Source: a virus
Virus record (IMG/VR): IMGVR_UViG_3300027728_000016
Location: 1-54,725 of that record
Direction: 5' to 3' (one strand)
DNA: 54,725 bases
Positions 1,045-44,636 of this stretch are shown here, piece after piece. The position numbers were made by a program, and so were the translations under genes. The notes under the pieces are model-generated. The model did no database searches and had not been told where the DNA came from. It saw only the letters and a program-made list of their open reading frames with translations. Each line of letters starts with the position of its first letter. Positions within the stretch are counted from its first letter, which is position 1.

Positions 1045-1650
1045 ATGTGTATTTATTGTGGTACTCAGTACCATCGCTTAATTTATGAGAATCATTTTGG
1101 ACCTATTCCTTTTGATGAAGAGGATAGAAGTTACGAAATACACCACATTGACGGTAACCATAATAATAACTCGCTTGAAAACTTACAATGTGTCTCTATT
1201 AAAGAGCATTATCAAATCCATTTGAATCAAGGTGATCTTAAAGCCTGCCTTATAATGTCTAAAAGAATGAGTTTGTCCCCGAAAGAGAAATCTAGGTTAG
1301 CTAAGATATCAAACGCCGGGCCACGCAATCCCTCATTCGGTACTATATGGATAACAGACGGGGCAACTAATAAGAAGATACAACAAGATGATTCTATACC
1401 GATTGGTTGGATCAAAGGCCGGTCCTTTAACACCGACTTTGCTGACAAATTTACTAAAAGAAGTAAGGTGGGTAAAAATAATCCCAGATATAACCACACA
1501 CAGTATCATTTTAGAAATACAGGAACAGGTGAAGAAGTCACCCTTACCCCCGGTGAATTTTCACTTGCGTACGGAATCAACATTAAGAAAGTGCGCTGTC
1601 TGTTTCGCAAAAAGTTAGATTCAATTAAAGATTGGATTATTATTTTCTAA
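1045..1650 (+). CDS. HNH homing endonuclease
   Basis: 201 residues on the plus strand, against its neighbours. Residues 31-59 hold the HNH core: EIHHIDGNHNNNSLENL followed by H55 and H59. An N-terminal CxxC (C2, C5) may help bind zinc. Residues 105-130 contain the WITDG...IPxGWxxGR module often seen C-terminal to phage HNH domains. The last 50 residues look like a helix-turn-helix DNA-binding unit. The ATG follows GAGGAG. Such enzymes cut intron- or gene-less alleles and spread by repair. It lies between dps and the small gene at 1793, with no sign of an interrupted gene, so it is probably a free-standing endonuclease. Confidence 0.85.
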   Translation: MCIYCGTQYHRLIYENHFGPIPFDEEDRSYEIHHIDGNHNNNSLENLQCVSIKEHYQIHLNQGDLKACLIMSKRMSLSPKEKSRLAKISNAGPRNPSFGTIWITDGATNKKIQQDDSIPIGWIKGRSFNTDFADKFTKRSKVGKNNPRYNHTQYHFRNTGTGEEVTLTPGEFSLAYGINIKKVRCLFRKKLDSIKDWIIIF

Positions 1651-1652
1651 TA

Positions 1653-1793
1653 TTACTTTTGGTTTAGAAGATCGCTAGCTTTTGTTTTCCAAACATCAGG
1701 GAATATGCCATGCACTATTAAAACAATCGCAATTTTCCATGCATGACATAGATGCTCAAAATATCCCTTGTTTACTTCTTTTAAGTGTGACAT
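1653..1793 (-). CDS. Small conserved membrane-type phage protein, 46 aa
   Basis: ATG at 1793-1791, TAA at 1655-1653. It reads MSHLKEVNKGYFEHLCHAWK, then a hydrophobic stretch IAIVLIVHGIFPDVW, and ends KTKASDLLNQK. The YFEH..AWK..VHG.FP..W.TKASD pattern is one I associate with short proteins of T4-like marine phages; no function is known to me. The hydrophobic centre could be one membrane segment. It starts 2 nt after the stop of the large multidomain gene and ends 3 nt from the convergent HNH gene. Confidence 0.6.
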   Translation of the reverse strand: MSHLKEVNKGYFEHLCHAWKIAIVLIVHGIFPDVWKTKASDLLNQK

Positions 1794-1795
1794 TA

Positions 1796-4700
1796 TTATT
1801 TCTTAAATGTCTTCAGTTGCAACATGTAGTGCTTGCCAGTCGCTCCCCTTTTCCAGGAATCAACAAGCTCATATTCAGGCAGTCCTCTGTCTAATCGGGC
1901 AATGAATGCGTCATATAACTTAACTCTACTAGGTTCTTCAGCGAAAAAATGTATTTCTATAGGTTCATGCATGATGGTATACTTTTTGACAATATCGATG
2001 ACGGTGGCAAAGACTCTACGCGCATCACCTGTATTTTCGATTCCGGTTTTAGGTTTTCCATTTTTATCATCGATACGAAATGATACCTCAATAGGCTCGC
2101 CGTCGGCGGTCAGTGCGGCCTGTGTGTTAGTCATACCCAATAGCCTTATAATAGTCTCATATTCAATATTATTAGCAGTCACGAAAGTAGCTATGTAATT
2201 ATTTCCAATTTGGTAAAAATCATATTTGTATGGTTTAGAGTCTAGTGATTCATTTGTCATCGCAGTGAGGTGTTCGGGCCCTTTACTCTTGAGACGACCA
2301 TGCTTTTGTTGATGTGTTCCTGATAACAGTAGATCGGTACTTTCTTCTACTGAGTTACTGCCAACCGACATATTAGCAACATCACTTGCTTTGATGTGAA
2401 CCAATCTTAATGTACCCGTTGCTCTTGCTTCCCAGTAACCAGTATTATGAATATGCATCATCATGTAGTATAGATACGTAGGATCTAGTACATCAGTAGC
2501 AGTGACTTTGATTCCGATATTGTCTGGTGAAAAGGTTTTAGTTGGTGTGCCAACTGTAGATTCACTACCATTGCGTTGTAGCCAAAAGTCAGCATCAGGG
2601 AAATTAGTCTTTACCGTGCATAGGTCCTTGAGTCTTGCTGATGTTGCTTCGATTAGCTCTTCCTCACCTATATCGATGTACTTGATAGGTCTTTTAGTTA
2701 GTGCGGCTGCGATAGCACGATGATTGCCATCAACAATATAACCGTTGTCTAGTACAATAATTCTATTTGAAAGATTTGGATCGTTGATGTATTCATCAAC
2801 AATCTCGTGTTGTTCTTCGCTCAATCTTCCAAACAAGTCTTCAATAAACTCTACTCCATACTGCTCGCACAAAAACAAGTCTAGCTTTCTAGGGCCTATT
2901 GTTCCTACTTCAAATGGGGTGTCCCAGATACCCGTGCCGTAATCCCAGATTCTCTCGTCGTTATCTGGCTTGTTATTCTTGTAAATTTGATTTAAGGTGA
3001 TAGTCTGGTCACTCGTATCTTCATTAGTCATCGCAATGATTCTACGAGGACCCTTGCTTTTGAACATGCCGTATTCTTCTTCATACGTAGTAGGGCCGCC
3101 GACCATTTGTCCTCCATTTGACCCTGCACTTCCTCCGCCTTGGCCGGTGCTTGCAGTCTCAGATAAAGCATTTCCTGCTCTACCGATTTTCATAAAACGA
3201 GTATAATCTGTTTCAGGATCAGCTAGTTCTTTTTCACCAGTATAATAAGTTTTTTCTAGGGGAAACAGTTCATCAAATTCTTGTAAGTCGTCGGTACTAA
3301 TCAATACATCATCTACGTTGTTTCTTGCTTGAAATGCACAGAGCATACCCTTAGGTATTTTAGTGAGAAATACCGGGCCTGTCTCATTGCAACTTGTATT
3401 GATTATTATTCCGGGCTTCTTAAATACTACATCTTCCGCCTTTTGATGCAGTAAAATTAACTTGCCGTCATCATTTAACGTATCAAGTAATTCTTTGCTA
3501 CGTGCCAATGATTCTTCGTCTGGTTCAACTAAGACAAGCTTATCAAACTGTACGCCGGCTTGTTGTAAGAATATCCCAATATTACCGTACCAGCTACCCA
3601 ATGCATATATAGTACCTGCATTCTTACCCTTAAGACCTTTTGCTAACATCTTGCATAACCAAGTCTTACTCTCAACTAAGTCTGGGGTAAAGCTACCCTC
3701 TATTGTGTCGGGGCTTGCTTCAACCACAGTGTTTTCTGTTATTGATCGATAAGGATGATGGACTATCCAACGACGTTCCCCATCACCATTTACCGACTTT
3801 GTTACCAGTAACTGACGCACCCATCTACCTAGCCATACCAAGGCGATGTAGCTGAGCGCGCTGGGCGCCGCTTTTTGTATCTGGGTACCCACTAATAGTG
3901 GTATCTGCTCCATGGTAATAGAGTACGGCGAGGGCGGCTCGTCATCCTCAGAATCAAAAAACGTTCCATCGACTAACTTAGTAAGTTTATATTTCGACAA
4001 TAATGCAGAAGGGTATTGGTCTAGCACAGATTTTACGTTGAGAGGGAAAATTTTAGCTTTTTCATTATTATCTAAATCGTTTGCACCTGCTGCTATCATT
4101 TCGTCAGCACGAGCTAGTGTAAGCTCGCGTATTTGCTGTACAACATCGGCTATCGTCTCAACATCTGCAAAATACAGAAGGTTTTTAATTTCAGGTTCAT
4201 GCTTCTTGAAGAATGGAATCAATTTCGGAAAACGTTTATTTAAAAGTACAGGAAGAGGTACTTCAGAATCATCTTCGTCCATGAATTGATTTGTAGGGAA
4301 GTGCAATTGATACTTCTCCCCTTCATGTGTCGGTGTCTTTGGAATAAGAATATACATTTTACCTTGACGATTGTACTGATCAAAATAGTTCTGACCTCTA
4401 GTAGCAGCAGTACACCAGCGAGTTCCGCGGCCATAACGACATGCGGCTGCGGTGTCTTCCGGGACTATCACAGTTACGGTATCGTCTTCGTATACTTTCG
4501 ATGCTTTACCTTTTTCTTCTTCTTTTTTGATATTTTTTTCGATGTCATCAAACTCATAATTGTCAAACATCATGTTTTCAAATTCGTGATATGTTTTAAA
4601 ACGATTGATGTCACTATGTTCTGGCTTGATCATTCTACGTTTCTTGCCAAGATCATAGATTCCCAACACACCTTGACGATTGATATCCTCAAGATTGAAA

Positions 4701-4969
4701 TTACCATTGGCATACATTCGTGCTAACCACGGGGTATAAACTTTATTTGGAGTAGGATCGGAATTTTCAATCGTGCCGAGAATAGTATTGGTCCAAGATC
4801 GCAGTTGATCAATTCCCCATCGGGCAATCCCTCCCCGTAATTTTTGGTGAATTGATATAAGGTTCATTGGAGGTCGGATATCTTTTGCGAGAGCTTGGAG
4901 AATTTTATCCCCGACCATCTCAGCAGTTTTAGCTCTGCTATATTCTATTAAGAATTCACGAAATCTCAT
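1796..4969 (-). CDS. Large multidomain protein: WCTA domain, methyltransferase-like fold, ParB-like domain
   Basis: 1057 residues from the ATG at 4969, which overlaps the upstream TGA; the frame stays open upstream but MRFREFLIEY mirrors the next gene's MRAREFLLEY. Order: a likely capsid-targeting peptide (L-I-E at 7-9); a domain shared with the upstream gene around YGRGTRWCTAATRGQNYF (179-196); a Rossmann-like methyltransferase segment with LGSWYGNIG (457-465) and acidic LVEPD (479-483); a Gly-rich linker; a ParB/sulfiredoxin-like motif VLDNGYIVDGNHR (739-751); and a C-terminal domain ending near EEPSRVKLYDAF. The phrase KSKGP....AMTNE occurs twice as a linker repeat. No enzyme activity can be assigned; I infer a virion-packaged modular effector. 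Confidence 0.7.
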   Translation of the reverse strand: MRFREFLIEYSRAKTAEMVGDKILQALAKDIRPPMNLISIHQKLRGGIARWGIDQLRSWTNTILGTIENSDPTPNKVYTPWLARMYANGNFNLEDINRQGVLGIYDLGKKRRMIKPEHSDINRFKTYHEFENMMFDNYEFDDIEKNIKKEEEKGKASKVYEDDTVTVIVPEDTAAACRYGRGTRWCTAATRGQNYFDQYNRQGKMYILIPKTPTHEGEKYQLHFPTNQFMDEDDSEVPLPVLLNKRFPKLIPFFKKHEPEIKNLLYFADVETIADVVQQIRELTLARADEMIAAGANDLDNNEKAKIFPLNVKSVLDQYPSALLSKYKLTKLVDGTFFDSEDDEPPSPYSITMEQIPLLVGTQIQKAAPSALSYIALVWLGRWVRQLLVTKSVNGDGERRWIVHHPYRSITENTVVEASPDTIEGSFTPDLVESKTWLCKMLAKGLKGKNAGTIYALGSWYGNIGIFLQQAGVQFDKLVLVEPDEESLARSKELLDTLNDDGKLILLHQKAEDVVFKKPGIIINTSCNETGPVFLTKIPKGMLCAFQARNNVDDVLISTDDLQEFDELFPLEKTYYTGEKELADPETDYTRFMKIGRAGNALSETASTGQGGGSAGSNGGQMVGGPTTYEEEYGMFKSKGPRRIIAMTNEDTSDQTITLNQIYKNNKPDNDERIWDYGTGIWDTPFEVGTIGPRKLDLFLCEQYGVEFIEDLFGRLSEEQHEIVDEYINDPNLSNRIIVLDNGYIVDGNHRAIAAALTKRPIKYIDIGEEELIEATSARLKDLCTVKTNFPDADFWLQRNGSESTVGTPTKTFSPDNIGIKVTATDVLDPTYLYYMMMHIHNTGYWEARATGTLRLVHIKASDVANMSVGSNSVEESTDLLLSGTHQQKHGRLKSKGPEHLTAMTNESLDSKPYKYDFYQIGNNYIATFVTANNIEYETIIRLLGMTNTQAALTADGEPIEVSFRIDDKNGKPKTGIENTGDARRVFATVIDIVKKYTIMHEPIEIHFFAEEPSRVKLYDAFIARLDRGLPEYELVDSWKRGATGKHYMLQLKTFKK

Positions 4970-6273
4970 CTTGGTTTTGGTACCGACACCGACGCAGCCG
5001 TCCAAGTACTACCGTCTCTTTTCATGAAGATGTTTCTATTAACAAAGTCCGCCAGGGCCAAGCTGGCGGCTGAGGTTCCGGGCCGCCTTTCCTTCTCTAT
5101 GTTTGCAGCAATGACATAAGTTAGGTCAGCAATAGAAGGCAACTGATGAAAATCTTCAGGATCTACCAAACTGTGCAATTGACTCTTTAAATATTCTGCT
5201 GAGGGACGAGTTGCTTGTTGCATGTCAATGCTAAATCTGCGAGCCTCGTCACTCCACCTTATATAATCGTCGCCGGCGTTATGAACTTTATCCCAGTCAA
5301 TCTCACCGTCATCGTCACCATATTCTTTTTGCATTGCTTGGTAGTAATAATCGTCATTCTGTTCCCAGTCAGATATTATTTCCCACATATGATCTTGGGC
5401 AATATCTGCAATCTGATCAATATACTTTTGTAACACTTCATCAGGCATGAATAACATACTATTTTTAAGCTCGGGTTCATTCTCATAAAAGAATTCAAGT
5501 AATTCTGGAAATCTTTTAGTCAATAAATTAACTACATCTACGTCGCTGTCTTTCTCGTCCATGAATTGAGCCGAAGGAAAATGAAGTTGGTATTTCTCTT
5601 TAGCATACTTTGGATTCTTTGGAATAAGAATATACAGTTTACCCTGACGATTGTAATGATTAAAGTAGTTCTCTCCTTTAGTAGCAGCAGTGCACCAGTG
5701 TGTCTCGGCGCCGTATCGGCAAGCAGCGGCTTCATCGTGCGGGACAACTACAAGAACATCACCGTTTTCAAATACTTTAGATGCTTGACCTTTTTCTTGT
5801 ACTTTTTTCTCAGTGTTATCTATGGCATCCAGATCATAGCCCACACGCATTGTTCCTTCAAAGTCTTCATAAGACTTGAAAACGTTGATATCATTGTGTT
5901 CCGGTCTGATCATACGTCTTCTTTTACCAAGATCATAGATTCCCAATATATTTCCCCGATTCAAGTCTTCTAAATTGACACCGCCGTTGACATACATTCT
6001 TGCTAACCAAGGTGTATATTGTTTATTTGTAGTAGGATCTTTTGTTTCGATGACGCTCAGCAAGTCTTCTAGAAATCTCGCTCTGACCGCAGGGTCTTTG
6101 ATGAGGAGGCCAGCCTTTTCTCGGTTAACTTCTCTAAAACTACTTCTCACCTGATCAAGCGGACCCACATTACCTCGATCAGCCATTACAGCTTTTTCAG
6201 CTTTCTCGCTTCCAGAGATTATCTGAGCAGTTTTCTTACGATCATACTCAAGTAGGAATTCACGGGCCCTCAT
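4966..6273 (-). CDS. WCTA-domain protein, paralogue of the downstream gene
   Basis: 435 residues. It starts MRAREFLLEYDRKKTAQ, with a possible cleavage after L-L-E (7-9). Residues 1-280 align end to end with the first 280 of the next gene, including the YTPWLARMY, GIYDLGKRRRMI and ACRYGAETHWCTAATKG motifs, so the two arose by tandem duplication. The C-terminal third is unique, acidic and helical and lacks the methyltransferase and ParB-like parts. Four-base ATGA overlap with the downstream gene shows translational coupling. Function unknown; the invariant Arg-Tyr-Gly...Trp-Cys-Thr-Ala core looks like a binding or catalytic site. Confidence 0.7.
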   Translation of the reverse strand: MRAREFLLEYDRKKTAQIISGSEKAEKAVMADRGNVGPLDQVRSSFREVNREKAGLLIKDPAVRARFLEDLLSVIETKDPTTNKQYTPWLARMYVNGGVNLEDLNRGNILGIYDLGKRRRMIRPEHNDINVFKSYEDFEGTMRVGYDLDAIDNTEKKVQEKGQASKVFENGDVLVVVPHDEAAACRYGAETHWCTAATKGENYFNHYNRQGKLYILIPKNPKYAKEKYQLHFPSAQFMDEKDSDVDVVNLLTKRFPELLEFFYENEPELKNSMLFMPDEVLQKYIDQIADIAQDHMWEIISDWEQNDDYYYQAMQKEYGDDDGEIDWDKVHNAGDDYIRWSDEARRFSIDMQQATRPSAEYLKSQLHSLVDPEDFHQLPSIADLTYVIAANIEKERRPGTSAASLALADFVNRNIFMKRDGSTWTAASVSVPKPR

Positions 6274-6278
6274 AACTG

Positions 6279-7856
6279 TTACTTAGTCAAGCCCTTCATG
6301 ATAGAACTCTCTTTTTTCATACGAGTGCCGGCACTCTTTGGTGTGAACTTACGATATGATTGTCCGGCGTTCCCGCCTTGCCCCATGCCACCTGCGAATG
6401 CAGTGTCTTCTTCTATCTCGCCGGCTGATTTGGGACGATACGTTCTTCTTCCACCCGGCTGAACTCCCACTGGACCTGATGTATCCGGCATCTCAGTTAG
6501 AACTTTCTTCCAGAAACGATTAACACTTTCGGGTAATGCCGGATGATTTTTGTCATACATTTTTTCAGTATCTTTTTCCATTCCTTGTTTCATTACTCGT
6601 AATACCGCTTTCTCATTTCCCTGCATCTGGCGAAGTGCCTGTAAAGTAAGAATTGGATCAAGTGGAATGGGTGAGTCAAATCGAATATATTTGTATAGCT
6701 TCGGTGCTACTCTTTTTAATGTTGCATAAGCGTCATCATGTTCCGGTGTGATGAATCCACCTGTTTGATTAGCAGTTGTCTGTGTATCACTTATTTCGCT
6801 GATTGTCCCGTTAAACTGACGATCTCTCGAACACCCATCCGTATTAATCTTTATAACCTGCTCTGTCGCGAGTTTTCTATTATAGTCTTCTTGTACGTGT
6901 GGTCTAACTCGATCATATACGGCATCAAACAGTTTATCGGGATCAACACCTGCGTTTTTTGCTTCGGCTTCAATTGCATCGAGAATCATAGAATTGCTAG
7001 GGTTTGGACCTATATAATCAACTATATATTGAACTAACTGGTCAAACGTCATACGGTTGTGCCATTTTTCTGAGGCTTCTCGCAGTTCTTTCTTGATCTT
7101 GTAGGTTTTGTTTGGATGCTTTTTCTTCATCAGGTTGACACTGTTTTCCGCATCTTTGGGATCAACATACTTGACAGTTGGCTTGCCATTGGCATAGATC
7201 ACTGAAACTAACTCACTTTCAGATAGCATGATGCCCTGCAATATGGCGCTTTCATTATTTTTGCTCTTATTTCCCCAGTTCTTTGCGCCCTTCTTGCGGC
7301 ACTGTACTAAAGCACCACTGGCATAAGCACTTGGCCATACTTTGTATCGTGCTTTAACTTTATGATAGCAAGCATCCTGCTTTTCATTAATCATTGATTC
7401 ATGCACAATAGGTCCACGACAGTTTGGGCATTCGTTGAATGGAATATCTTGATTCATCATGTCTTCGTTCTTTTTCTTTCCGGCACAATGTGCTTTTTGA
7501 CTAAAGCCTTTTGGATTAGAGCAATTGATACTATCTTTGTATGATTGACTCCACTTTTCGTTTAATTGAGTATCTTCGTTTGTCTTTTTCTTAGTAGCTA
7601 CATTTTTAGCCTGGCCTCGACGTTCTGGGTTTGGGTCTTCTCTGCGCTTCTTACTAGCAGCATACTTGCGACCCTTCTTACCTAAATTCTGTGCTTTCTT
7701 CTGCGGGAGGCACTTCGGCTTACCTTCACTATCACTGCCTCTTGCACAAGCTCCGCGAATCTTGCCATCAGGACCAAAACGAACCCACTTCTCTTTGAAC
7801 CACTTACGTAGATTCTCGTCAAGCTGTTCAATGTCACCGAATTCGTCACTAGTCAT
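6279..7856 (-). CDS. Basic Cys/Lys-rich repeat-domain protein (candidate packaged protein)
   Basis: 525 residues built from short cationic modules. GACARGSDSEGKPKCLPQ and a GKKGRK...RREDPNPER stretch (35-90), a KDSINCSNPKGFSQKAHCAG module (107-127), a CPNC pair and an ACYHKVKARYKVWPSAYASG module (162-181) are types I know from marine T4-like phages; the last resembles the DUF5872 type. The C-terminal half is helical and ends in two RPKSAG/TPKSAG repeats. The N-terminus is acidic, with L-D-E at residues 12-14, a possible prohead-protease site. DNA or RNA binding is suggested by charge only. It directly follows the Fe-S-like gene with no gap. Confidence 0.65.
   Translation of the reverse strand: MTSDEFGDIEQLDENLRKWFKEKWVRFGPDGKIRGACARGSDSEGKPKCLPQKKAQNLGKKGRKYAASKKRREDPNPERRGQAKNVATKKKTNEDTQLNEKWSQSYKDSINCSNPKGFSQKAHCAGKKKNEDMMNQDIPFNECPNCRGPIVHESMINEKQDACYHKVKARYKVWPSAYASGALVQCRKKGAKNWGNKSKNNESAILQGIMLSESELVSVIYANGKPTVKYVDPKDAENSVNLMKKKHPNKTYKIKKELREASEKWHNRMTFDQLVQYIVDYIGPNPSNSMILDAIEAEAKNAGVDPDKLFDAVYDRVRPHVQEDYNRKLATEQVIKINTDGCSRDRQFNGTISEISDTQTTANQTGGFITPEHDDAYATLKRVAPKLYKYIRFDSPIPLDPILTLQALRQMQGNEKAVLRVMKQGMEKDTEKMYDKNHPALPESVNRFWKKVLTEMPDTSGPVGVQPGGRRTYRPKSAGEIEEDTAFAGGMGQGGNAGQSYRKFTPKSAGTRMKKESSIMKGLTK
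7780..7804. repeat. 25-bp direct repeat, copy inside the basic protein gene
   Basis: The 25 bases starting cgaacccacttctctttg are identical to 8376-8400. Here they encode the WFKEKWVRF part of the basic repeat protein. Confidence 0.8.
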
Positions 7857-8420: not shown

Positions 8421-9713
8421 CTAGCCTTTTTTGTTCTTGTTAGCTAACATGCCACGTTTGTTAGCAGTCGCCCAAGCAATATTCTCAGCTTCTTTCTTTG
8501 ACTTGCCTGTTTTTTCTTCAGATTTCTTGATGTGCTTTACCATTCGGTCAACTTTAGCACCTTCCTCTATATTAGTTCCGGTTAGTTGAGGTTTTTCACG
8601 AAGTTTCTTCATTACTTGCGTTTTGTAGTGCGGAACTTCTCTCTTTGATAACCCCGTAACAGCTGGTTTGCCATCAACTAGAACAGCCCAACTATGTTCA
8701 TCGTTTCCGCCCCATTTCTTAACCGTGATTCTTTTTTCGATAGGGTCTGCTGCCTCGCCAACACCGCCACCGGCGATAACACCGCCGGTCATCTCACGAA
8801 CTTGTTTACCCTCAAGATACTGACGAACTGAGTTTAGATAATCTGCTGCTTTAGTGATCTTAGCCTGTACCCAGCCTTCGAGTCCTTGATCTTCAGACAC
8901 ACCTTGAAGCATCTCAAATGTCTGCTTAGCATTCTTTGCTGCTTGGAATAAGTCACTGCGAGCCATCTCGACTTCATGATCTCTACGATCTTGATCGTGA
9001 GGAATAAATCCGCTCTTTAATCTATGCCCTTGTCCTGGCACGATGATCAATTCATCTTCATCTAGGTGTGCTTCCTTGATGCCTTTAGCGTCCGGTGATA
9101 GTTTCCCATTAAACATTTTTCTCACTGAATCCTTAGTAAATCTGCCCTTAGAATCTAACTCAGCATCAAACTCATCTTTACTTTTCTTAGTTTTCGCACT
9201 TTCAAACATATTTCCTGTTCGATCTCTGGCTGAGCCCTGCAGGCGCCAGTCTGACCGAATCCACTTTTCGGCGTCGTTGAAGCCAGACCTAGTATTACTG
9301 AATTGCCTAACTTTGCCGGTTGGTAAAAACTTAACTTTAATATGGGACTGCCTGCCTGTACTAGGATGTTCAAAACCCGTATATGTGGCTACAACATCTC
9401 CATTGTGTATGTACTTACCTGTATTTACTGTTCCAGACCAGTGTGAAGTATCACCACTACCATACTCGTGAGTCCATTCTTCTGACACACTTTTCTTACC
9501 TTGACTCATTCTGGGTAAAGCAGCCGGCGATTCTGAAATAGAGTCGGCAAGCTTTTTATTAGGCTCTTTACCAGTGAATAAGCTACCTGCTTTTTGATTA
9601 GGATAGACGCCTTGTCCAACGTTAGACCGTTTCAGTACCTTGACAATCATTGGCTGTGCTACAGTTGCGACCGAGCCGGCTGTTGTACTTTCGTAGATAT
9701 CGTTAATTTTCAT
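8421..9713 (-). CDS. Modular basic protein with conserved C-terminal phage motif
   Basis: 430 residues. It starts MKINDIYESTTAG, with I-Y-E at 6-8 as a possible prohead-protease cleavage. The middle contains HEVEMARSDLFQAAKNAKQ and GLEGWVQAKITKAADYLNS, a helical segment I recognise from T4-like marine phages. The last 48 residues (RMVKHIKKSEEKTGKSKKEA, then NIAWATANKRGML) form a common basic tail module of phage proteins. No enzyme motif is visible. A late-type promoter lies at 9746-9753. A capsid or packaged protein is the most likely role, by inference. Confidence 0.65.
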   Translation of the reverse strand: MKINDIYESTTAGSVATVAQPMIVKVLKRSNVGQGVYPNQKAGSLFTGKEPNKKLADSISESPAALPRMSQGKKSVSEEWTHEYGSGDTSHWSGTVNTGKYIHNGDVVATYTGFEHPSTGRQSHIKVKFLPTGKVRQFSNTRSGFNDAEKWIRSDWRLQGSARDRTGNMFESAKTKKSKDEFDAELDSKGRFTKDSVRKMFNGKLSPDAKGIKEAHLDEDELIIVPGQGHRLKSGFIPHDQDRRDHEVEMARSDLFQAAKNAKQTFEMLQGVSEDQGLEGWVQAKITKAADYLNSVRQYLEGKQVREMTGGVIAGGGVGEAADPIEKRITVKKWGGNDEHSWAVLVDGKPAVTGLSKREVPHYKTQVMKKLREKPQLTGTNIEEGAKVDRMVKHIKKSEEKTGKSKKEAENIAWATANKRGMLANKNKKG

Positions 9714-12795: not shown

Positions 12796-13413
12796 TTAGG
12801 ATGATTTCTTTTCTAATTTGTAGGTTTTACCAATGACATTGGGAAACATCAGATGAATGTAGGTTAACATAGCTGGGTCGTTATAATCAATATAGTAATG
12901 ATCATAAATCCAAATGTATTTGTATCCCCAACTGCTTAGGGGATACAAACATCGAAGAAAAGGATGATTCGGGCGTAACCCATCAGTTCGTTCTAGATAT
13001 TCTACAAACGCTGGCCTAAACTCAGCTTCTACCCTTTTTGTCTTAAGATAGGACCTAAACTTAGCAGGAGGAGTATTCTTAAATAGTTTTACGCCATGTG
13101 TCACAATAGCTTCAGTTATGGGGCCGGCATTAGCCAGTAATTGAAATTGCTCAACCAGTGCTAAATCGTTGCTAAAGAAGGTGATACGGTCCCCTTCTAG
13201 CCTGAACTTATTATTCTCTCGATGCAAAGCAAGGAATATACTGATTTTTTCCCGATCAGTATATGATGTTGTATGCATCTCTGGCAGACTGATGAGGTTT
13301 CCCAGCTGTATACTTTCTTGACCTCTGGGTGTCCGTACACTAACTCTATACTTAAATTTATTGTAGTAAAGGATAGTCCGATCTTCAGCTTTGAATTTCA
13401 ATGATGCCGTCAT
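12796..13413 (-). CDS. Unrecognised conserved-looking protein overlapping the clpA 3' end
   Basis: 205 residues from the ATG at 13413 (AAGGA seven bases upstream), overlapping the ClpA C-terminal coding end by 29 nt; a further upstream ATG at 13464 is less likely. It reads TILYYNKFKYRVSV near the start and ends in a Tyr/Trp-rich region YKYIWIYDHYYIDY. It is basic, mixed alpha/beta, with no motif I can name. The overlap means it is expressed with the second half of clpA. Confidence 0.55.
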   Translation of the reverse strand: MTASLKFKAEDRTILYYNKFKYRVSVRTPRGQESIQLGNLISLPEMHTTSYTDREKISIFLALHRENNKFRLEGDRITFFSNDLALVEQFQLLANAGPITEAIVTHGVKLFKNTPPAKFRSYLKTKRVEAEFRPAFVEYLERTDGLRPNHPFLRCLYPLSSWGYKYIWIYDHYYIDYNDPAMLTYIHLMFPNVIGKTYKLEKKSS

Positions 13414-14593
13414 GGCCAATCCTTGCGTTTTGCTTTTGAGTAATTTGGAAAACAATCTCGTCATTTTCTAAAACTGCCATGATACTTGAATTCGCAATGC
13501 GCTCAAAGAGAATCTTCTTTGAGAGGGGAACGCGAATCAGTTCATCGATCTTGCGAGCGAGCGGGCGGGCTCCCATCTTACTATCGTATCCTTTAGCAGC
13601 TAGGTAGTCAACTACCGATTCGCTCAAATTAAGAGTGATATTGTGCTTTTCGAGCAAGGGCTTCTTGACCTCGTCGAGGAACTTGATAACGATCTTCTTG
13701 ATAGCAAGCGTATCCAACTTGTTGAACTTACAAATCATATCAAGACGATTGCGGAACTCAGGTTTGAAGAACTGCTTGAGTGCTTTCTCGTCTTCATCGG
13801 TTTTTTCTAACATACCGAAGCCAATGTTATTACGCTCATTGTCTGCTGAACCAAGATTAGAGGTCATAATAATAATAGTGTTCTTGCATGAGACTTCCTT
13901 ACCGTTAGAACCGGTGATGCGTCCCTCATCCAAAATCTGCAAGAAGATGTTGAAGATATCGGGGTGAGCCTTTTCAACTTCGTCGAATAGCATAATCGAA
14001 TGAGGGTTCTTGCTCAAGTCTGAAATCAAACGTCCACCCTGCACCTGTGAATCGCTGAAGCCTACATATCCCGGGGGAGGACCAATCAAGCCACTTACGC
14101 TGTGCTTCTCTCCGTATTCCGACATGTCATACTTGAGAAGCGGCATCTCCAAATTCTTAGAGAGCAGCTTAGCAAGCTCAGTATTATGATGAATAAAACC
14201 ATTTGAAGTTTGATACAGGTGAGAATCCGATACTACACTAAGATCATAAAATAACGTATCGTCAATTGGAACAACATCCAGAACAGAAACCTCGGACCCA
14301 TTTTGCTTGCAAATTATATCTCCAGTCTGCAATGAATCAAAATACAGACATTCCTCACCATCGTGAATTAGGTGTTTATCGGCAGCAGAAATCGTGTCTC
14401 CTGAATCAAAGGTTATTTTTCTACCCGTAGTTTCTTTGGTAATAGCAGCATTCACTTCTACCCAATTGTCATTCTCATCTTTGATTTGAATTTCGGAGTT
14501 TAAAAATTGCTCATGTTCAGGTACGAATGTGGTCTTTTCATAAAGACTAATGAGGTTGAAGAGTTTTGCGATAGGTAGAGTGATTTCTTTCAT
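13385..14593 (-). CDS. clpA: C-intein fused to ClpA C-terminal half (D2 AAA+ domain)
   Basis: 402 residues. Residues 1-137 are the C-terminal part of a split intein; 138-402 are ClpA. The ClpA part starts with Thr138 of the D2 Walker A motif, then has GPPPGYVGF, Walker B LFDEVEKAH (202-210), sensor TSN, an IGF tripeptide (257-259) aligned with the ClpP-docking IGL loop of ClpA, FRNRLD and YDSKMGARPL. It cannot bind ATP at D2 until spliced to the upstream half. Own SD (AAAGGGA) and a possible promoter at 14637-14665, so it can be made separately. Joined to the N-half it gives 755 residues against 758 in E. coli ClpA. An unspliced, non-functional remnant is unlikely because all motifs are intact. 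Confidence 0.9.
   Translation of the reverse strand: MKEITLPIAKLFNLISLYEKTTFVPEHEQFLNSEIQIKDENDNWVEVNAAITKETTGRKITFDSGDTISAADKHLIHDGEECLYFDSLQTGDIICKQNGSEVSVLDVVPIDDTLFYDLSVVSDSHLYQTSNGFIHHNTELAKLLSKNLEMPLLKYDMSEYGEKHSVSGLIGPPPGYVGFSDSQVQGGRLISDLSKNPHSIMLFDEVEKAHPDIFNIFLQILDEGRITGSNGKEVSCKNTIIIMTSNLGSADNERNNIGFGMLEKTDEDEKALKQFFKPEFRNRLDMICKFNKLDTLAIKKIVIKFLDEVKKPLLEKHNITLNLSESVVDYLAAKGYDSKMGARPLARKIDELIRVPLSKKILFERIANSSIMAVLENDEIVFQITQKQNARIGHDGIIEIQS
14183..14593 (-). other. C-intein, 137 residues (atypically split intein)
   Basis: Block B region ITFDSGDTISAADKH contains the His (73) used in step one; the usual TxxH is here AxxH. Block F reads FYDLSVVSDSHLYQTSNGF and the end is HHN, followed by extein Thr. 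The pattern FDxGxxIxxxxxH and the C-terminal block resemble the atypical TerL split inteins (short N-part, long C-part) known from metagenomes. Asn137 cyclisation and Thr+1 give a complete splicing centre with Cys1 of the N-intein. Confidence 0.9.
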
Positions 14594-14636
14594 ATAATTC
14601 CCTTTGTGTTAGTGACAGTGTATTTAATATAATACT

Positions 14637-14665
14637 ATAATACTGTGTTTTTCATAAAAAGTAAA
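14637..14665 (-). promoter_or_regulatory. Possible sigma-70-type promoter for the C-half of clpA
   Basis: TTTACT, 17 nt, TATTAT on the minus strand, 43 nt before the ATG at 14593. A late-like ATTAAATA overlaps downstream at 14621-14628. Weak -35, so only moderate support. Confidence 0.4.
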
Positions 14666-14692
14666 GCTGTTTGTTGATTTTCTTGCCCAAAT

Positions 14693-14700
14693 GATAAATA
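14693..14700 (+). promoter_or_regulatory. T4-type late promoter (GATAAATA) for the Vsr-like endonuclease
   Basis: Plus-strand GATAAATAA. The predicted start at 14706 is the A of the Shine-Dalgarno AGGAG, giving a 14-nt leader before the ATG at 14720. Confidence 0.6.
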
Positions 14701-14719
14701 AACATAGGAGCAACATGTT

Positions 14720-15802
14720 ATGGCAAGACGTTTAGAAACAAGACTCGAAGGCAGCAAGCCCTTTAAGGACAGAATCGGAAGACCATTAATTTCCGTTGAA
14801 ATTGAAAGATTATATGAATTTCATCATAGAGTAGGCTACACTCCGGACAGGATACATGCGATAGTCCAATTTATTTTATTAGGATACGATGATTGGAGTA
14901 GTATTTGGAATAAATTAAAGACCTTGCACAACGGTACATTAGAATACCAAACTCTACTTTACGGAGATGTTATGGGCAAAACCAAATATTTGGAACTTAA
15001 CAAGAAAAAAACTAAAGGATTTGACCATTCGTCTGATGCTCAAAGAGAGAAGGGAAAAAAATCAGCCAAGCTATCAAAAGGAAATAAAGAATGGAGTGTG
15101 CGCGGGTTGGGGTATTGGATCAAAAAAGGATACACAAAAGACGAATCATTAGAGAAAGTGAAGGCAATACAAATAACTAATTGCTTAGATAGATACATAA
15201 AAAAATACGGTATTGATGAGGGGACCCAAAAGTTTAATGATAGGAAGAATACTTGGAAAAAAACGATGAACTCTTCGATTATTGGCAAAAAAAGAAGTCT
15301 GGGACTATGGAGATACGTAGAAAGATACGGTGAAGCTGAAGGAGAGAAAAAATATATCGAAATGCGTATTAAAAGAAATTCTAAATGCAGTATAGGAAGA
15401 GCGTCTGCCGAGTCGCTAGATGCACTTTCCCCAATCATACGTATCTTAGATCAAAATGGTATTAATTACTATATAGGAATAGAAGGAAATAAAGAATGGT
15501 TCATATTCAATAAAAAAGAAAAAAAGATGTTTTTCTATGATTTAACTATACCTTCATTGGGGATAATAGTAGAATATCACGGTGAGGGATTTCATCCTAA
15601 TCCAAACTGGGAAGAGAAGATGCTAACTGAGTGGAGACAAGTTAGAACAGGAAAAGGCGCTAAAGAAGTGATGGACTATACTAAAATGAAAAATCTTACT
15701 GCAATAGAAAACAGATGGACCGTATTTGAAATCTTCTCGTCAGAGGTTTCAAATACGGTCCCCAGGATAAAAGACGTTATACTGAAATCAATCCGTTCTT
15801 AA
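14720..15802 (+). CDS. Vsr-like (EDxHD-type) homing endonuclease in the clpA fracture
   Basis: 360 residues on the strand opposite to clpA, filling the gap between its halves. The C-terminal nuclease region reads FFYDLTIPSLGIIVEYHGEG then FHPNP, with D274, E285 and H291; this matches the Vsr/PD-(D/E)xK-related EDxHD family first described beside split inteins in metagenomic phage genes. The middle carries two copies of a Y-G-x-x-E-G-x-x-K-[YF] module (RYIKKYGIDEGTQKF and RYVERYGEAEGEKKY), probable DNA-binding units. The ATG follows AGGAG. Its last 26 nt overlap the N-half of clpA convergently. It presumably cuts uninterrupted clpA alleles. Confidence 0.85.
   Translation: MARRLETRLEGSKPFKDRIGRPLISVEIERLYEFHHRVGYTPDRIHAIVQFILLGYDDWSSIWNKLKTLHNGTLEYQTLLYGDVMGKTKYLELNKKKTKGFDHSSDAQREKGKKSAKLSKGNKEWSVRGLGYWIKKGYTKDESLEKVKAIQITNCLDRYIKKYGIDEGTQKFNDRKNTWKKTMNSSIIGKKRSLGLWRYVERYGEAEGEKKYIEMRIKRNSKCSIGRASAESLDALSPIIRILDQNGINYYIGIEGNKEWFIFNKKEKKMFFYDLTIPSLGIIVEYHGEGFHPNPNWEEKMLTEWRQVRTGKGAKEVMDYTKMKNLTAIENRWTVFEIFSSEVSNTVPRIKDVILKSIRS
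15717..15761. repeat. Perfect 15-bp inverted repeat inside the endonuclease gene
   Basis: Arms 15717-15731 (ggaccgtatttgaaa) and 15747-15761 are exact complements separated by 15 nt. It codes for the endonuclease C-terminus on the plus strand and lies 15 nt past the stop of the clpA N-half on the minus strand, where it would form a stable 3' hairpin without a U-tract. Confidence 0.85.
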
Positions 15803-17333
15803 CAGCAAAATTGTACATATCATCGGTAATTTTTACAGTAACTTCTTGCTCACCCGCCAAACACTTACCCGTACCTGTAGGTCCCAAGAACAAGAAACTT
15901 GCGATGGGCTTCTTATCATTGCCGATACCAGCGAATGATACATAAACCCGTTCAAGAACTTTATCTACTGTCTCGTCTTGACCATAAAGCTTATCCTTGA
16001 CGTTTGTGTCAAGCTGATGAATACGATCAAGGTTGTCGCCGGACATTTTGTCCGCAGGGACCCCAGTAAACTTTTCAACTTGATCATAGATCAACTGTTT
16101 GGTGATGACTGCATTCTTGTTTTCAAGCACCCGCTGCTTTGCACAAGCTGCATCTAGCAAGTCAATCGACTTGTCGGGGTTCTTGCGGTCGTGAATATAA
16201 CGATCTGCACTTTCGACTGCTGCTTCGATTGCCTCTTCGCTAATACTAACGTTATGGAAATCATTCAGACGGGTAGAAAGTCCACGCAGGATTCGAACAG
16301 TAGAATCATGTGAAGGTTCATCGATAGAAACACGATAGAATCGGCGCATCAACGCTCGATCCTTTTCGAATGATTCGTAGTATTCTTCCCAAGTCGTAGA
16401 TGCGATTACCTTAAGGTTGCCCTTAGTGATAGCGGGCTTGATCATGTTAGAAAAGTCAACAGCTCCAGAAGTCGAGCCGCCGGCACCCTGCATAGTATGT
16501 GCTTCGTCGATGAATAGAATAGCCTTCTTCTTGACAGTAAGTGCCTGCAGTACGTGCTTTACCTTTTCTTCGAAGTCACCTCGATATTTAGATCCAGCAA
16601 GCAACGTGCCGATTTCAAGCGAGTAAAGTTCATGGTCTAGCAAGAAGTCTGGAACTTCTTCATTGACGATTGCATTTGCGATACCCTCAGCGATAGCAGT
16701 CTTCCCGACGCCAGGGTCTCCCACCATCAATACGTTAGCTTTGAATCGCTTTGCCAAAACGTTGATGATGTCATCGATCTCTTTAGTGCGACCGATCACT
16801 GGTTCTAGTTTTTCATTTCGTGCAAGCTGAGTTAGATTGATAGTATATTCGTCAAGAATCTCGTCAGCCTGGACATCACTGATGCCGCTAGCATACTCGC
16901 CGCCGCGATAGTTCTTTTGCCAATGAGCGAGAAACTCTGCCTTACCGATGCCGTACTTGAGCAGGAAGTAATGTCCATGCGAATTGCCTTCACTAGCGAT
17001 ACTCATGAACAGATCAATCGTAGCCATCTGTCGGCGGCCAGTGAACAAGACCTGAGTAACAGAACGGTTCATGACGCGTTCGAGTGTATTAGTACGCTTT
17101 GGCTGGCTGGCTGGGTCTTTAGATTCAATCGCGTGCAGGCCGTTAAGATACGCTTCGACTTCAGTGATTAGCATATCTGTGTCGGCATTAAAGCTGTTCA
17201 AACACTTCCTAAAAGGAGAGTGAGTAATCAATGCAAGAAGCAAATGTTCTACTGTGCAATATTCATGGTTGCGTTGCTTAGCAGCTTCAATTGCTCGTTC
17301 AATGATATTTTCAATTTCGGGCGAGGTCTGAAT
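15777..17333 (-). CDS. clpA: ClpA N-terminal half (N-domain, D1, start of D2) fused to N-intein; ATT start
   Basis: 518 residues if started at ATT 17333-17331. No ATG, GTG or TTG precedes TTG 17243 in frame, but the upstream codons read IENIIERAIEAAKQRNHEY then TVEHLLLALI, which match the ClpA N-terminus; AAAGGA lies 8 nt before the ATT. Then come Clp_N repeats, D1 Walker A GDPGVGKT (205-212), Walker B LFIDEAHT (273-280), and LFLGPTGTGK (481-490), the first part of D2 Walker A. Residues 491-518 are the N-intein. Role: ATP-driven unfolding of proteins, probably feeding host ClpP. Late-type promoter at 17355-17362. It must splice with the 14593 product to work. Confidence 0.9.
   Translation of the reverse strand: MQTSPEIENIIERAIEAAKQRNHEYCTVEHLLLALITHSPFRKCLNSFNADTDMLITEVEAYLNGLHAIESKDPASQPKRTNTLERVMNRSVTQVLFTGRRQMATIDLFMSIASEGNSHGHYFLLKYGIGKAEFLAHWQKNYRGGEYASGISDVQADEILDEYTINLTQLARNEKLEPVIGRTKEIDDIINVLAKRFKANVLMVGDPGVGKTAIAEGIANAIVNEEVPDFLLDHELYSLEIGTLLAGSKYRGDFEEKVKHVLQALTVKKKAILFIDEAHTMQGAGGSTSGAVDFSNMIKPAITKGNLKVIASTTWEEYYESFEKDRALMRRFYRVSIDEPSHDSTVRILRGLSTRLNDFHNVSISEEAIEAAVESADRYIHDRKNPDKSIDLLDAACAKQRVLENKNAVITKQLIYDQVEKFTGVPADKMSGDNLDRIHQLDTNVKDKLYGQDETVDKVLERVYVSFAGIGNDKKPIASFLFLGPTGTGKCLAGEQEVTVKITDDMYNFAVKNGLISV
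15780..15863 (-). other. N-intein, 28 residues
   Basis: Starts CLAGEQEVTVKI (block A: Cys1, Leu2, Gly4) directly after GPTGTGK and ends NGLISV at the stop. Typical split N-inteins are around 100 residues; only the atypical TerL-type ones are about 25. The remaining splicing blocks are all on the C-intein. Confidence 0.9.
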
Positions 17334-17353
17334 GGTACTTTTCCTTTACAAAA

Positions 17354-18157
17354 CTATTTATTTTTACTACGATTGATACTATCAATTATATCATTGTCTA
17401 TATTATCAGGGATGTATGGCTTGATCAATAGTATTTGGTCACCCATCGTGCCATCACGAGAGGGCATACCATAACCAGGTACCCTAATAACCTGAGCAGG
17501 TTGTGTATTGGGTTTAATTACAACCTCTATTGTTTTTCCATTAATGGTTTGAATTGGAACTTTAGCGCCCACAATCAAGTCTAGTACAGAGATAGTCAGT
17601 TGCGAATATAGATCACTGCCTTTCCGTTCATATCTATGATCAGGAGTGATGGCGAACTCAACAATTAGTGTTACATTGTTGATGATATTATCATAGCGCA
17701 TCGTGTCACCGTTGTCAACACCAGGAGGAATTTTTATGTTGATGACTTTCACCCCTTGGGGGGTACTAAGCTGTATTATACTCTCGGTTCCAGTATATGC
17801 ATCAACCAATGATACACCAAGACGAGTGCGCATCACTTGTTGCTGCTGTGCGAATGGGTTAGGTCTGTTTCCAAAAATCTGTCCGAACAAATTTTCTAGA
17901 TCAAACGCATTACCATATACTGAGAATTCTTCTCCCCCACTACCGAATGGATTATGTTGCTGTCTAGATTGAGGGCTGTCGTATCGTAAACGCTTATCGG
18001 TATCACTTAATATTTCGTATGCATTACTGATTTCTTGAAACTTATTAATGTCGCCGCCGCGATCAGGATGATGCTGCATCGCAAGTTTACGAAATGCACT
18101 TTTAATTTCTTCCTGAGTAGCGGTGCGAGATACCCCGAGAGTAGTGTAATGATCCAT
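17354..18157 (-). CDS. dnaJ: DnaJ/CbpA-type co-chaperone
   Basis: 267 residues. The J domain (1-65) has the HPD motif at 30-32, needed to stimulate DnaK. A Gly/Phe/Asn/Gln-rich linker (66-105) follows, then the two beta-sandwich substrate-binding domains (106-255) with TRLGVSLVDAYTGTE and IKIPPGVDNGDTMRY. There is no zinc-finger domain, so it is CbpA-like. Promoter TTGACA-17-TATTAT ends 6 nt before the ATG, predicting a leaderless mRNA. It lies just upstream of the clpA N-half, so a host-DnaK/ClpA remodelling pair is suggested. Confidence 0.9.
   Translation of the reverse strand: MDHYTTLGVSRTATQEEIKSAFRKLAMQHHPDRGGDINKFQEISNAYEILSDTDKRLRYDSPQSRQQHNPFGSGGEEFSVYGNAFDLENLFGQIFGNRPNPFAQQQQVMRTRLGVSLVDAYTGTESIIQLSTPQGVKVINIKIPPGVDNGDTMRYDNIINNVTLIVEFAITPDHRYERKGSDLYSQLTISVLDLIVGAKVPIQTINGKTIEVVIKPNTQPAQVIRVPGYGMPSRDGTMGDQILLIKPYIPDNIDNDIIDSINRSKNK
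17355..17362 (-). promoter_or_regulatory. T4-type late promoter (AATAAATA) for clpA N-half
   Basis: Minus-strand AATAAATAG overlapping the dnaJ stop; predicted start at 17349, giving a short leader with AAAGGA before the ATT start. Confidence 0.5.
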
Positions 18158-22771: not shown

Positions 22772-23137
22772 CTAATACTCTTTGTCTGTCATCGTATAAT
22801 CGTTGACGTATTCTTCACTTACTAATAAAATGTCATTGGGGTCTACCTTACGGATTACTTTCTCGCCTTCGTCGTCTTCGATGGTCTGACCACGACTCCA
22901 GCGACCGTGTGCTATCATAATATAATCGCCTACTTTAACATCTTGTACGTCTGGGCCAACAGCATATACCTGGGCCCAACGGGGACGGATACCTGCACTT
23001 TTCATATCATCATCGAGAAGAATAAGTCCTCCCCTACTGATACGTTCTCTAAACTCCATGCCGCACACTAAAATAGTGTTTTTGATTGGATGTAGCTTAC
23101 GTAATTTAGTTCTAGTTATGTTAACTTTTTCAGCCAT
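22772..23137 (-). CDS. 31: GroES-like co-chaperonin (gp31-like)
   Basis: 121 residues, longer than GroES (97). The GroES fold is visible: LHPIKNTILVCGMEF at the start, a mobile loop RISRGGLILLDDD matching GGIVL of GroES, then AQVYAVGPD and VKVGDYIMIAHGRWSRG. It would cap host GroEL with a larger cavity so that capsid protein can fold, as gp31 does in T4. It lies 2 nt downstream of the 23553 gene. With dnaJ and clpA it makes a phage chaperone set. Confidence 0.85.
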   Translation of the reverse strand: MAEKVNITRTKLRKLHPIKNTILVCGMEFRERISRGGLILLDDDMKSAGIRPRWAQVYAVGPDVQDVKVGDYIMIAHGRWSRGQTIEDDEGEKVIRKVDPNDILLVSEEYVNDYTMTDKEY

Positions 23138-43762: not shown

Positions 43763-44143
43763 ATGAACGCAAACGATTTTTTTAAGAAACTAAACGAAAA
43801 TTACCCGTTTATAACGGTCTGTTCCTATGCCCAACAAGACTATGTTGGCATCATTCAGAATCGAGATTATGTGGTCACTACTATGTATGACTATGGTTCG
43901 TTAGCTCTCCCTGAACTAAGAACGAAATTCTTAGAATTGGGTGAAGTTTGGTGGTGGGAATCAAATAGAACGATCCCCATCAACATATTCTTGAAAGATG
44001 AATGGGCTATCTTTAAACCTTATATTCGTACTTTTAACAACAAGAGTTTAGATATCGTCTATGGCCCAGTCGTTAGTATGACAGATTTCACGAAAAAACG
44101 AGCGAAACGCAAAAGCGTTATGTTCATTAAACGGATGCCTTAA
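43763..44143 (+). CDS. Conserved phage protein of unknown function, plus strand
   Basis: 126 residues: FFKKLNENYPFITVCSYAQQ, DYVGIIQNRDYVVTTMYDYG, LELGEVWWWESNRTIPINIF, and a basic tail KKRAKRKSVMFIKRM. The GEVWWWESNRxIPIxIFL motif is strongly conserved in T4-like marine phages. TATACT ends 5 nt before the ATG, suggesting another leaderless start, but the -35 is weak. Its end overlaps the deformylase gene convergently by 17 nt. Role unknown. Confidence 0.65.
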   Translation: MNANDFFKKLNENYPFITVCSYAQQDYVGIIQNRDYVVTTMYDYGSLALPELRTKFLELGEVWWWESNRTIPINIFLKDEWAIFKPYIRTFNNKSLDIVYGPVVSMTDFTKKRAKRKSVMFIKRMP

Positions 44144-44636
44144 TTACCTTTGCTAAACTTTTCTTGCGTTTCTCTTTAGCCATCTTCATACTTAAATTTC
44201 CTACCCTTTGATCGAACGTTACCCCAAGCAAGTGATCATACTCATGCAGGAACACCCGTGCCTCTAATCCAGCAAGTTCACGTTCAACAATCTGACCACT
44301 GACATCTTGATATTGCACGATGCACTCGGTTGGGCGCTTTACCTTCAACCAAAGATTAGGAAAACTCAAACAGCCTTCTATATCTACTTCACGCTGTTCA
44401 GATAGACCAACAATTTTTGGATTAATGCACACGACTAGTTTAATGAAGTTGCCCATGACAAAAATACGCTTGCTGATGCCGCATTGTGGCGCGGCAAGTC
44501 CGACTCCGCCATTAATAGTCAATGTTTTGACCATTTCGCTTACGAGTTCTTCGGGGCTGCCATCCACTTCAAAATCCCACGGCGACGAGACTTCTAACAG
44601 TTGTGGATCATTTTCGTTAAGTAGTTCTAAATTCAT
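44127..44636 (-). CDS. def: Peptide deformylase
   Basis: 169 residues. All three motifs are present: GVGLAAPQ (44-51), EGCLSFP (87-93) and HEYDH (131-135). The enzyme removes the formyl group of new proteins and uses a metal held by Cys89, His131 and His135. T4-like cyanophages carry such genes, where support of host photosystem turnover has been proposed; the host here is unknown. Perfect late octamer TATAAATA at 44656-44663, SD AAGAAG. The C-terminus is basic. Confidence 0.93.
   Translation of the reverse strand: MNLELLNENDPQLLEVSSPWDFEVDGSPEELVSEMVKTLTINGGVGLAAPQCGISKRIFVMGNFIKLVVCINPKIVGLSEQREVDIEGCLSFPNLWLKVKRPTECIVQYQDVSGQIVERELAGLEARVFLHEYDHLLGVTFDQRVGNLSMKMAKEKRKKSLAKVIKASV

Follow-up and report, generated by a model that had tools for sequence, protein, structure and literature searches.

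How can a phage make a ClpA unfoldase from a gene that is broken in two inside the ATPase motor it encodes? The question is raised by IMGVR_UViG_3300027728_000016, a 54,725-base IMG/VR virus record (hereafter the window, meaning the whole stretch of DNA analysed), in which clpA lies in two pieces with another gene between them. We consider it very probable that an atypically split, mobile intein of class 1 fractured this clpA and that its product is joined by trans-splicing. The strongest additions made here to the initial annotation of the locus are the exact position of the break within a P-loop, its independent recurrence, and a relative in which clpA is in three pieces.

Both pieces are read from the minus strand. 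The first encodes the ClpA N-extein (490 aa, 15864-17333), from a probable ATT start to the lysine of the D2 Walker A motif (GPTGTGK), and continues into 28 N-intein codons (15780-15863), of which Cys1 is the first, and a stop codon (15777-15779); its end reads FLFLGPTGTGK/CLAGEQEVTVKITDDMYNFAVKNGLISV-stop, where the slash, here and below, marks the splice site. After a gap of 1183 bp the second piece opens with its own ATG at 14593, preceded by a Shine-Dalgarno (SD)-like AAAGGGA. It encodes a C-intein of 137 codons (14183-14593), which ends in HHN before Thr+1, followed by the 265-aa C-extein (13388-14182, stop 13385-13387), whose first residue is the Walker A threonine; this half reads MKEITLPIAKLF...HLYQTSNGFIHHN/TELAKLL.... 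A free-standing endonuclease gene of 360 aa fills the gap on the plus strand, opposite to clpA (14720-15802), and shares 26 bp with the 3' end of the N half. The initial annotation had described two minus-strand ClpA halves with an opposite-strand endonuclease between them, totalling 490 + 265 = 755 residues once the intein is removed; the open reading frames (ORFs), their sequence and the family matches of both halves agree with the first statement, and the codon counts with the second.

Of the NCBIfam models, ClpA (TIGR02639) fits both halves best, with matches at model positions 2-501 for the N half (E 2e-146) and 500-730 for the C half (E 4e-83), although either half alone falls under the whole-protein cut-off. 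Clp_N and AAA domains are also matched, and the joined 755 aa align with ClpA over the full length. The best PDB match of the N-extein is E. coli ClpA (its residues 4-501), with residue 490 pairing with E. coli residue 501, which we take to be the D2 Walker A lysine. The joined exteins hold both Walker A/B pairs as well as the GYVG pore loop and an IGF loop like those that dock onto ClpP, with the D2 Walker B motif and these two loops in the C-extein. The break thus falls in the D2 Walker A at GK/T, leaving the Lys in the N half and the Thr in the C half. Because of this, the D2 ATPase site is incomplete in each half on its own, and ClpA activity should therefore depend on splicing.

The sequences at the break are those of an intein. 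In profile comparisons with the PDB the C-intein matched CatC best (6dsl, E 1.5e-6), and the RadA, gp41-1, VidaL and PolB16 inteins as well. An AlphaFold2 model of the C part alone (mean predicted local distance difference test score, pLDDT, 92) gave 44 Foldseek matches with E of 0.001 or lower, the great majority to inteins, and the C part has the HINT/intein fold of class 1 inteins. Across ten ClpA inteins, namely that of the window and nine others with aligned N-inteins of 24-42 aa, Cys1, His74 of block B, Asp117 of block F, His125, the penultimate His136 and the terminal Asn137 are invariant and are followed by Thr+1; the window intein carries the class 1 residue set with the exception of the block B Thr. 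Its sequence marks it as an atypically split intein with a very short N part (28/137). The split intein of the initial annotation is thus borne out and can be refined to this atypical split, lying exactly at the D2 Walker A GK/T.

In class 1 inteins, an N-S shift at Cys1 is followed by transfer to the +1 residue, cyclisation of the terminal Asn and an O-N shift. We propose that a mobile split intein homed into the DNA for the D2 Walker A (GPTGTGK/TEL) and so broke clpA in two. The two halves would be translated separately, the 28-aa N-intein would dock onto the 137-aa C-intein, and Cys1, Thr+1 and Asn137 would then carry out trans-splicing, yielding a 755-aa ClpA with a native P-loop and the junction peptide GPTGTGKTELAK. 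The Vsr-like gap gene would be the homing endonuclease, which cuts, or once cut, uninterrupted clpA, with repair copying the whole cassette. The intein parts might instead serve merely as a dimerisation clasp in a non-covalent, two-subunit ClpA, since an enzyme in pieces can in principle be held together without ligation. However, the intein would sit inside the D2 P-loop, between the ATP/Mg-binding Lys and Thr, and an insertion left unspliced there should destroy the site; its splicing residues are also conserved, and we regard a clasp as extremely unlikely.

The initial annotation had called for a search for uninterrupted phage clpA at this locus. As predicted, such genes were found, in 76 loci, and in them the end of the N-extein and the start of the C-extein abut exactly (tblastn). 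One of these empty genes, L003, encodes a protein 98% identical to the joined exteins of the window (~92% in DNA). A tree of 57 ClpA proteins joins the window to L003, deep among many empty genes, and requires at least four changes of the fractured state on supported branches; some distant fractured rows are long-branched in this tree, and firm placement among empties is confined to the window and a second fractured gene, L118. The distribution of the fracture is sporadic, with these two each among empty genes. The window has AAG/ACTGAGCTTGCT at the junction and L003-L009 have AAA/ACAGAATTGGC, amounting to five silent differences in 12 bp, against three differences in the 250 bp at positions 51-300 on the C side. 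Such a cluster would be expected from co-conversion of the flank in the course of homing, or from a mutated target.

Codon changes, assigned with the help of outgroups, number 55 synonymous and 6 nonsynonymous on the window branch and 47 and 6 on the L003 branch. Given this resemblance, both halves look to be under purifying selection, as constrained as the intact gene. These counts bear on whether the window holds a clpA pseudogene, with an intein that no longer splices and halves that decay while the ClpA of the host is used. In its favour, the host is likely to encode a ClpA or ClpC that could stand in. The excess of synonymous changes argues against decay, as does the absence of any stop or frameshift in either half, both of which keep all their motifs. 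Moreover, the C half retains its own start and SD-like site, and the splicing residues are invariant in all ten inteins. A pseudogene is accordingly highly unlikely.

Recurrence provides a further line of evidence. Few loci came back when the query was the window endonuclease, the C-intein alone, a three-row alignment or the endonuclease of locus L090, but a nucleotide pattern for the splice junction succeeded: the DNA pattern for Y-x-T-x-N-G-x-x-[HN]-H-N-T returned 55 stretches, and reading these brought the fractured clpA/clpB-type lineages to nine, the window included. In 84,980 genomes of bacteria and archaea, a narrower pattern built along the same lines had no match. Fractured at D2 only are the window (with its identical counterpart in a second IMG/VR contig, 3300028559_000039, 100% over 12.7 kb), L104, L111/L135, L118/L119, L130 (327 kb), L141 and L112/L151/L154/L156. 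The last of these are ClpB/ClpG-like as well as ClpA-like and carry the endonuclease on the sense strand. L104 keeps the split intein around a gap of 113 bp that holds no endonuclease, and in L141 the gap holds a different antisense ORF of unknown family (8618-9478, minus) in place of the Vsr-like endonuclease. By eye this ORF resembled a GIY-YIG nuclease, a likeness unsupported by Pfam, PHROGs, the PDB or a SegG-like protein. A match in Sinorhizobium phage Phosso that seemed to cover intein residues proved to be an uninterrupted gene. Two jumbo-phage records with fractured clpA, G006 and G013, also encode ClpP.

Two lineages are broken at D1. L120 is fractured there only, with D2 intact. In L090 (IMGVR_UViG_3300033146_007470, 1459-7170) clpA adjoins clpS and is in three pieces, with split inteins at both the D1 and the D2 Walker A; their C-intein parts are 42% identical, and each is accompanied by an antisense Vsr-like endonuclease, the first of which (D1) is frameshifted. 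The initial annotation had known of no fractured clpA. The window is not unique in this respect, having eight further fractured clpA/clpB-type lineages beside it, yet no publication on them, and no report of a ClpA split intein, was found in the open-access papers searched, subscription papers not being covered.

The same data dispose of an assembly artefact. The source is a metagenomic contig, but the same junction stands in the second contig and in eight divergent lineages, which refutes misassembly. An RNA intron in place of an intein is countered by the intein protein sequence at both breaks and by the lack of any Rfam match over 13000-17800, even with an E-value threshold of 1. Taken together, the chance that an artefact or an RNA intron explains the locus is close to negligible.

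What, then, is the gene in the gap? The window endonuclease has no match in Pfam or NCBIfam, and its family was therefore assigned through relatives and fold, as Vsr-like (EDxHD-type). The same family occurs in fractured terL (L083, L084, L086-L088), gp41-type helicase (L093), phoH (L094) and polB (L095, L096), and the L096 copy is annotated 'VSR endonuclease' next to an 'intein-containing split DNA polymerase precursor'. The profile of the endonuclease matches Vsr weakly (E 0.03), and AbaSI is among its weak Foldseek matches. Residues E259, D274, E285 and H292 are invariant in seven endonuclease relatives; E259, D274 and H292, together with a last Asp further downstream, are presumably the named residues of EDxHD. 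The endonuclease that the initial annotation placed in the gap is thus upheld as an opposite-strand gene that belongs with other fractured-gene endonucleases, and is qualified by an alteration in its own catalytic motif.

That alteration is one of several points that weigh against the mechanism proposed here. The downstream motif Asp, which aligns with a Vsr Asp and is kept in the other relatives, is replaced by Thr in the window and L118. The endonuclease model has a pLDDT of 75, and its Foldseek matches to Vsr (probability 0.98, E 0.16) and I-Bth0305I (0.93, E 0.4) have E-values that are not significant. The intein, like its relatives, has another residue in place of the Thr that is usual in block B (ADKH). 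Contig 3300028559_000039 may come from the same phage population as the window. The case for a gain in the window rather than a loss in L003 rests on tree position, and part of the synonymous and nonsynonymous count on the window branch may predate the insertion. Finally, the anatomy, the exact empty site, the intein fold of the C part, the residue conservation, the purifying selection and the recurrence are established, while splicing, cutting by the endonuclease and the need for spliced ClpA are what we infer.

Because Thr replaces the last motif Asp, present-day cutting by the window endonuclease, and with it present-day homing, is uncertain. The cassette could thus be a partial relic, in which the intein still splices and keeps ClpA alive while the endonuclease is inactive and homing has ceased. 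The shared Thr in the window and L118, the loss of the endonuclease with retention of the split intein in L104, and the frameshifted D1 endonuclease of L090 would all fit such a state. On the other hand, the window ORF is full length and uninterrupted, the flank at the junction looks like a product of co-conversion, and an intact ORF in L118, at 51% identity, carries this Thr too, so the Thr may be a working variant. We give the relic appreciable but less than even weight; trans-splicing of ClpA is common to it and to the mechanism proposed above.

Several further features of the locus concern its expression. The open frame of the N half extends from 17345, and no in-frame ATG, GTG or TTG lies upstream of the ClpA homology. 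The most likely start is the ATT at 17333 (17331-17333), which follows an SD-like AAAGGAA and is also present in the 98%-identical empty L003; most other near relatives have TTG. Just 3' of the N-half stop, an RNA hairpin with 15-bp arms (15717-15761, minus; -31.2 kcal/mol for a 101-nt stretch, z -4.5) may form the 3' end or terminator of the N-half transcript. A terminator scan did not call it; it is not a classic U-tailed terminator and lies inside the coding end of the endonuclease, on the other strand. In the divergent intergenic region (14594-14719) a consensus scan alone placed promoter-like sites, at 14665-14637 on the minus strand for the C half and at 14612-14641 on the plus strand for the endonuclease; such sites were about as numerous in shuffled sequence.

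The window is probably a fragment of a large phage, since its DnaB-type helicase and one other protein are closest to those of PA5oct-like jumbo Pseudomonas phages. The N half of clpA follows a dnaJ gene on the minus strand. DnaJ (17354-18157), a Cpn10-like protein (22772-23137) and a peptide deformylase (44127-44636) form a protein-quality gene set in the window.

Inteins of the same style were also seen at GK/T of clamp-loader and DnaB/RadA-like P-loops, some contiguous and some split (L103, L105-L108, L113-L115, L125, L136, L138-L140, L143, L147, L148, L150, L152), and this intein family seems to favour P-loops. In L101 (IMGVR_UViG_3300003873_000051, 5690-7718) a clamp-loader P-loop holds a split intein whose two parts nearly adjoin, with no endonuclease between them, and a second intein-like insertion follows VIDE (Walker B). 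The fractured phoH of L094 (3419-6690) and gp41-type helicase of L093 (2696-5768) have their Vsr-like endonucleases on the sense strand, and L093 holds a further small split intein piece in a recA/uvsX-like gene. Separate from the ClpA inteins, C-inteins of ~40 aa, split at the usual position, precede TGPEYAASI or TGVVYGASI in one phage gene family (L109, L117, L124, L126-L128, L132, L137, L145, L153, L155).

If the mechanism proposed here is correct, splicing is an obligatory assembly step of the phage ClpA, and trans-splicing in nature seems to extend to an AAA+ protease unfoldase, which it would join where the motor site is most conserved. The fractured arrangement itself is recurrent and not a single oddity. 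Empty, endonuclease-free, sense- and antisense-endonuclease, and one- and two-site forms together offer a comparative series for the origin and spread of fractured genes. Protein semisynthesis might make use of the short N-inteins, which at 24-28 aa and with Cys1 and Thr+1 are candidates for such work. L090, with two natural split inteins in one protein, provides a natural test of orthogonality, because cross-splicing would omit the middle piece between D1 and D2.

Fractured genes with split inteins and intervening endonucleases were reportedly described by Dassa et al. in 2009. As in those known cases, the window gene is in two pieces, with a split intein at the break and an endonuclease of the Vsr-like family between them; it is set apart by its host gene, clpA, and by a break in the D2 Walker A. 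The orientation also differs, in that the endonuclease is antisense in the window and most of its ClpA relatives and sense in the terL, gp41, phoH and polB loci examined here. The D2 Walker A of clpA is therefore a new and recurrent host gene and site for a known arrangement. With its very short N and long C part, and in profile and fold, the window intein resembles Cat (6dsl), VidaL (6vgv) and PolB16 (8cpn), although it is remote from them in sequence (~20% over Foldseek alignments) and occupies another host protein and site. The PolB16 OarG intein is split 15/168 (PMC10189870), and it has Ser1/Ser+1 in contrast to Cys1/Thr+1 in the window. A Clp protease component, ClpP, also carries inteins, in chloroplasts and bacteria (PMC5784728); however, ClpP is the peptidase and ClpA the AAA+ unfoldase, and that paper makes no mention of a split ClpA intein. 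Closest in placement are the phage clamp-loader and helicase P-loop inteins (L092, contiguous; L101 and L143, split without endonuclease; L106, L113, L115 and L148), which share the GK/T site and have a C-intein start of the same kind. The ClpA C-inteins nevertheless form one group on a separate branch (100/99), within which the two D1 inteins pair together. We lean towards the view that an atypically split intein lineage has specialised on the GK/T of phage ATPase P-loops and has repeatedly invaded both Walker A sites of clpA, giving rise to two- and three-piece unfoldases that would be assembled by one or two trans-splicing reactions.

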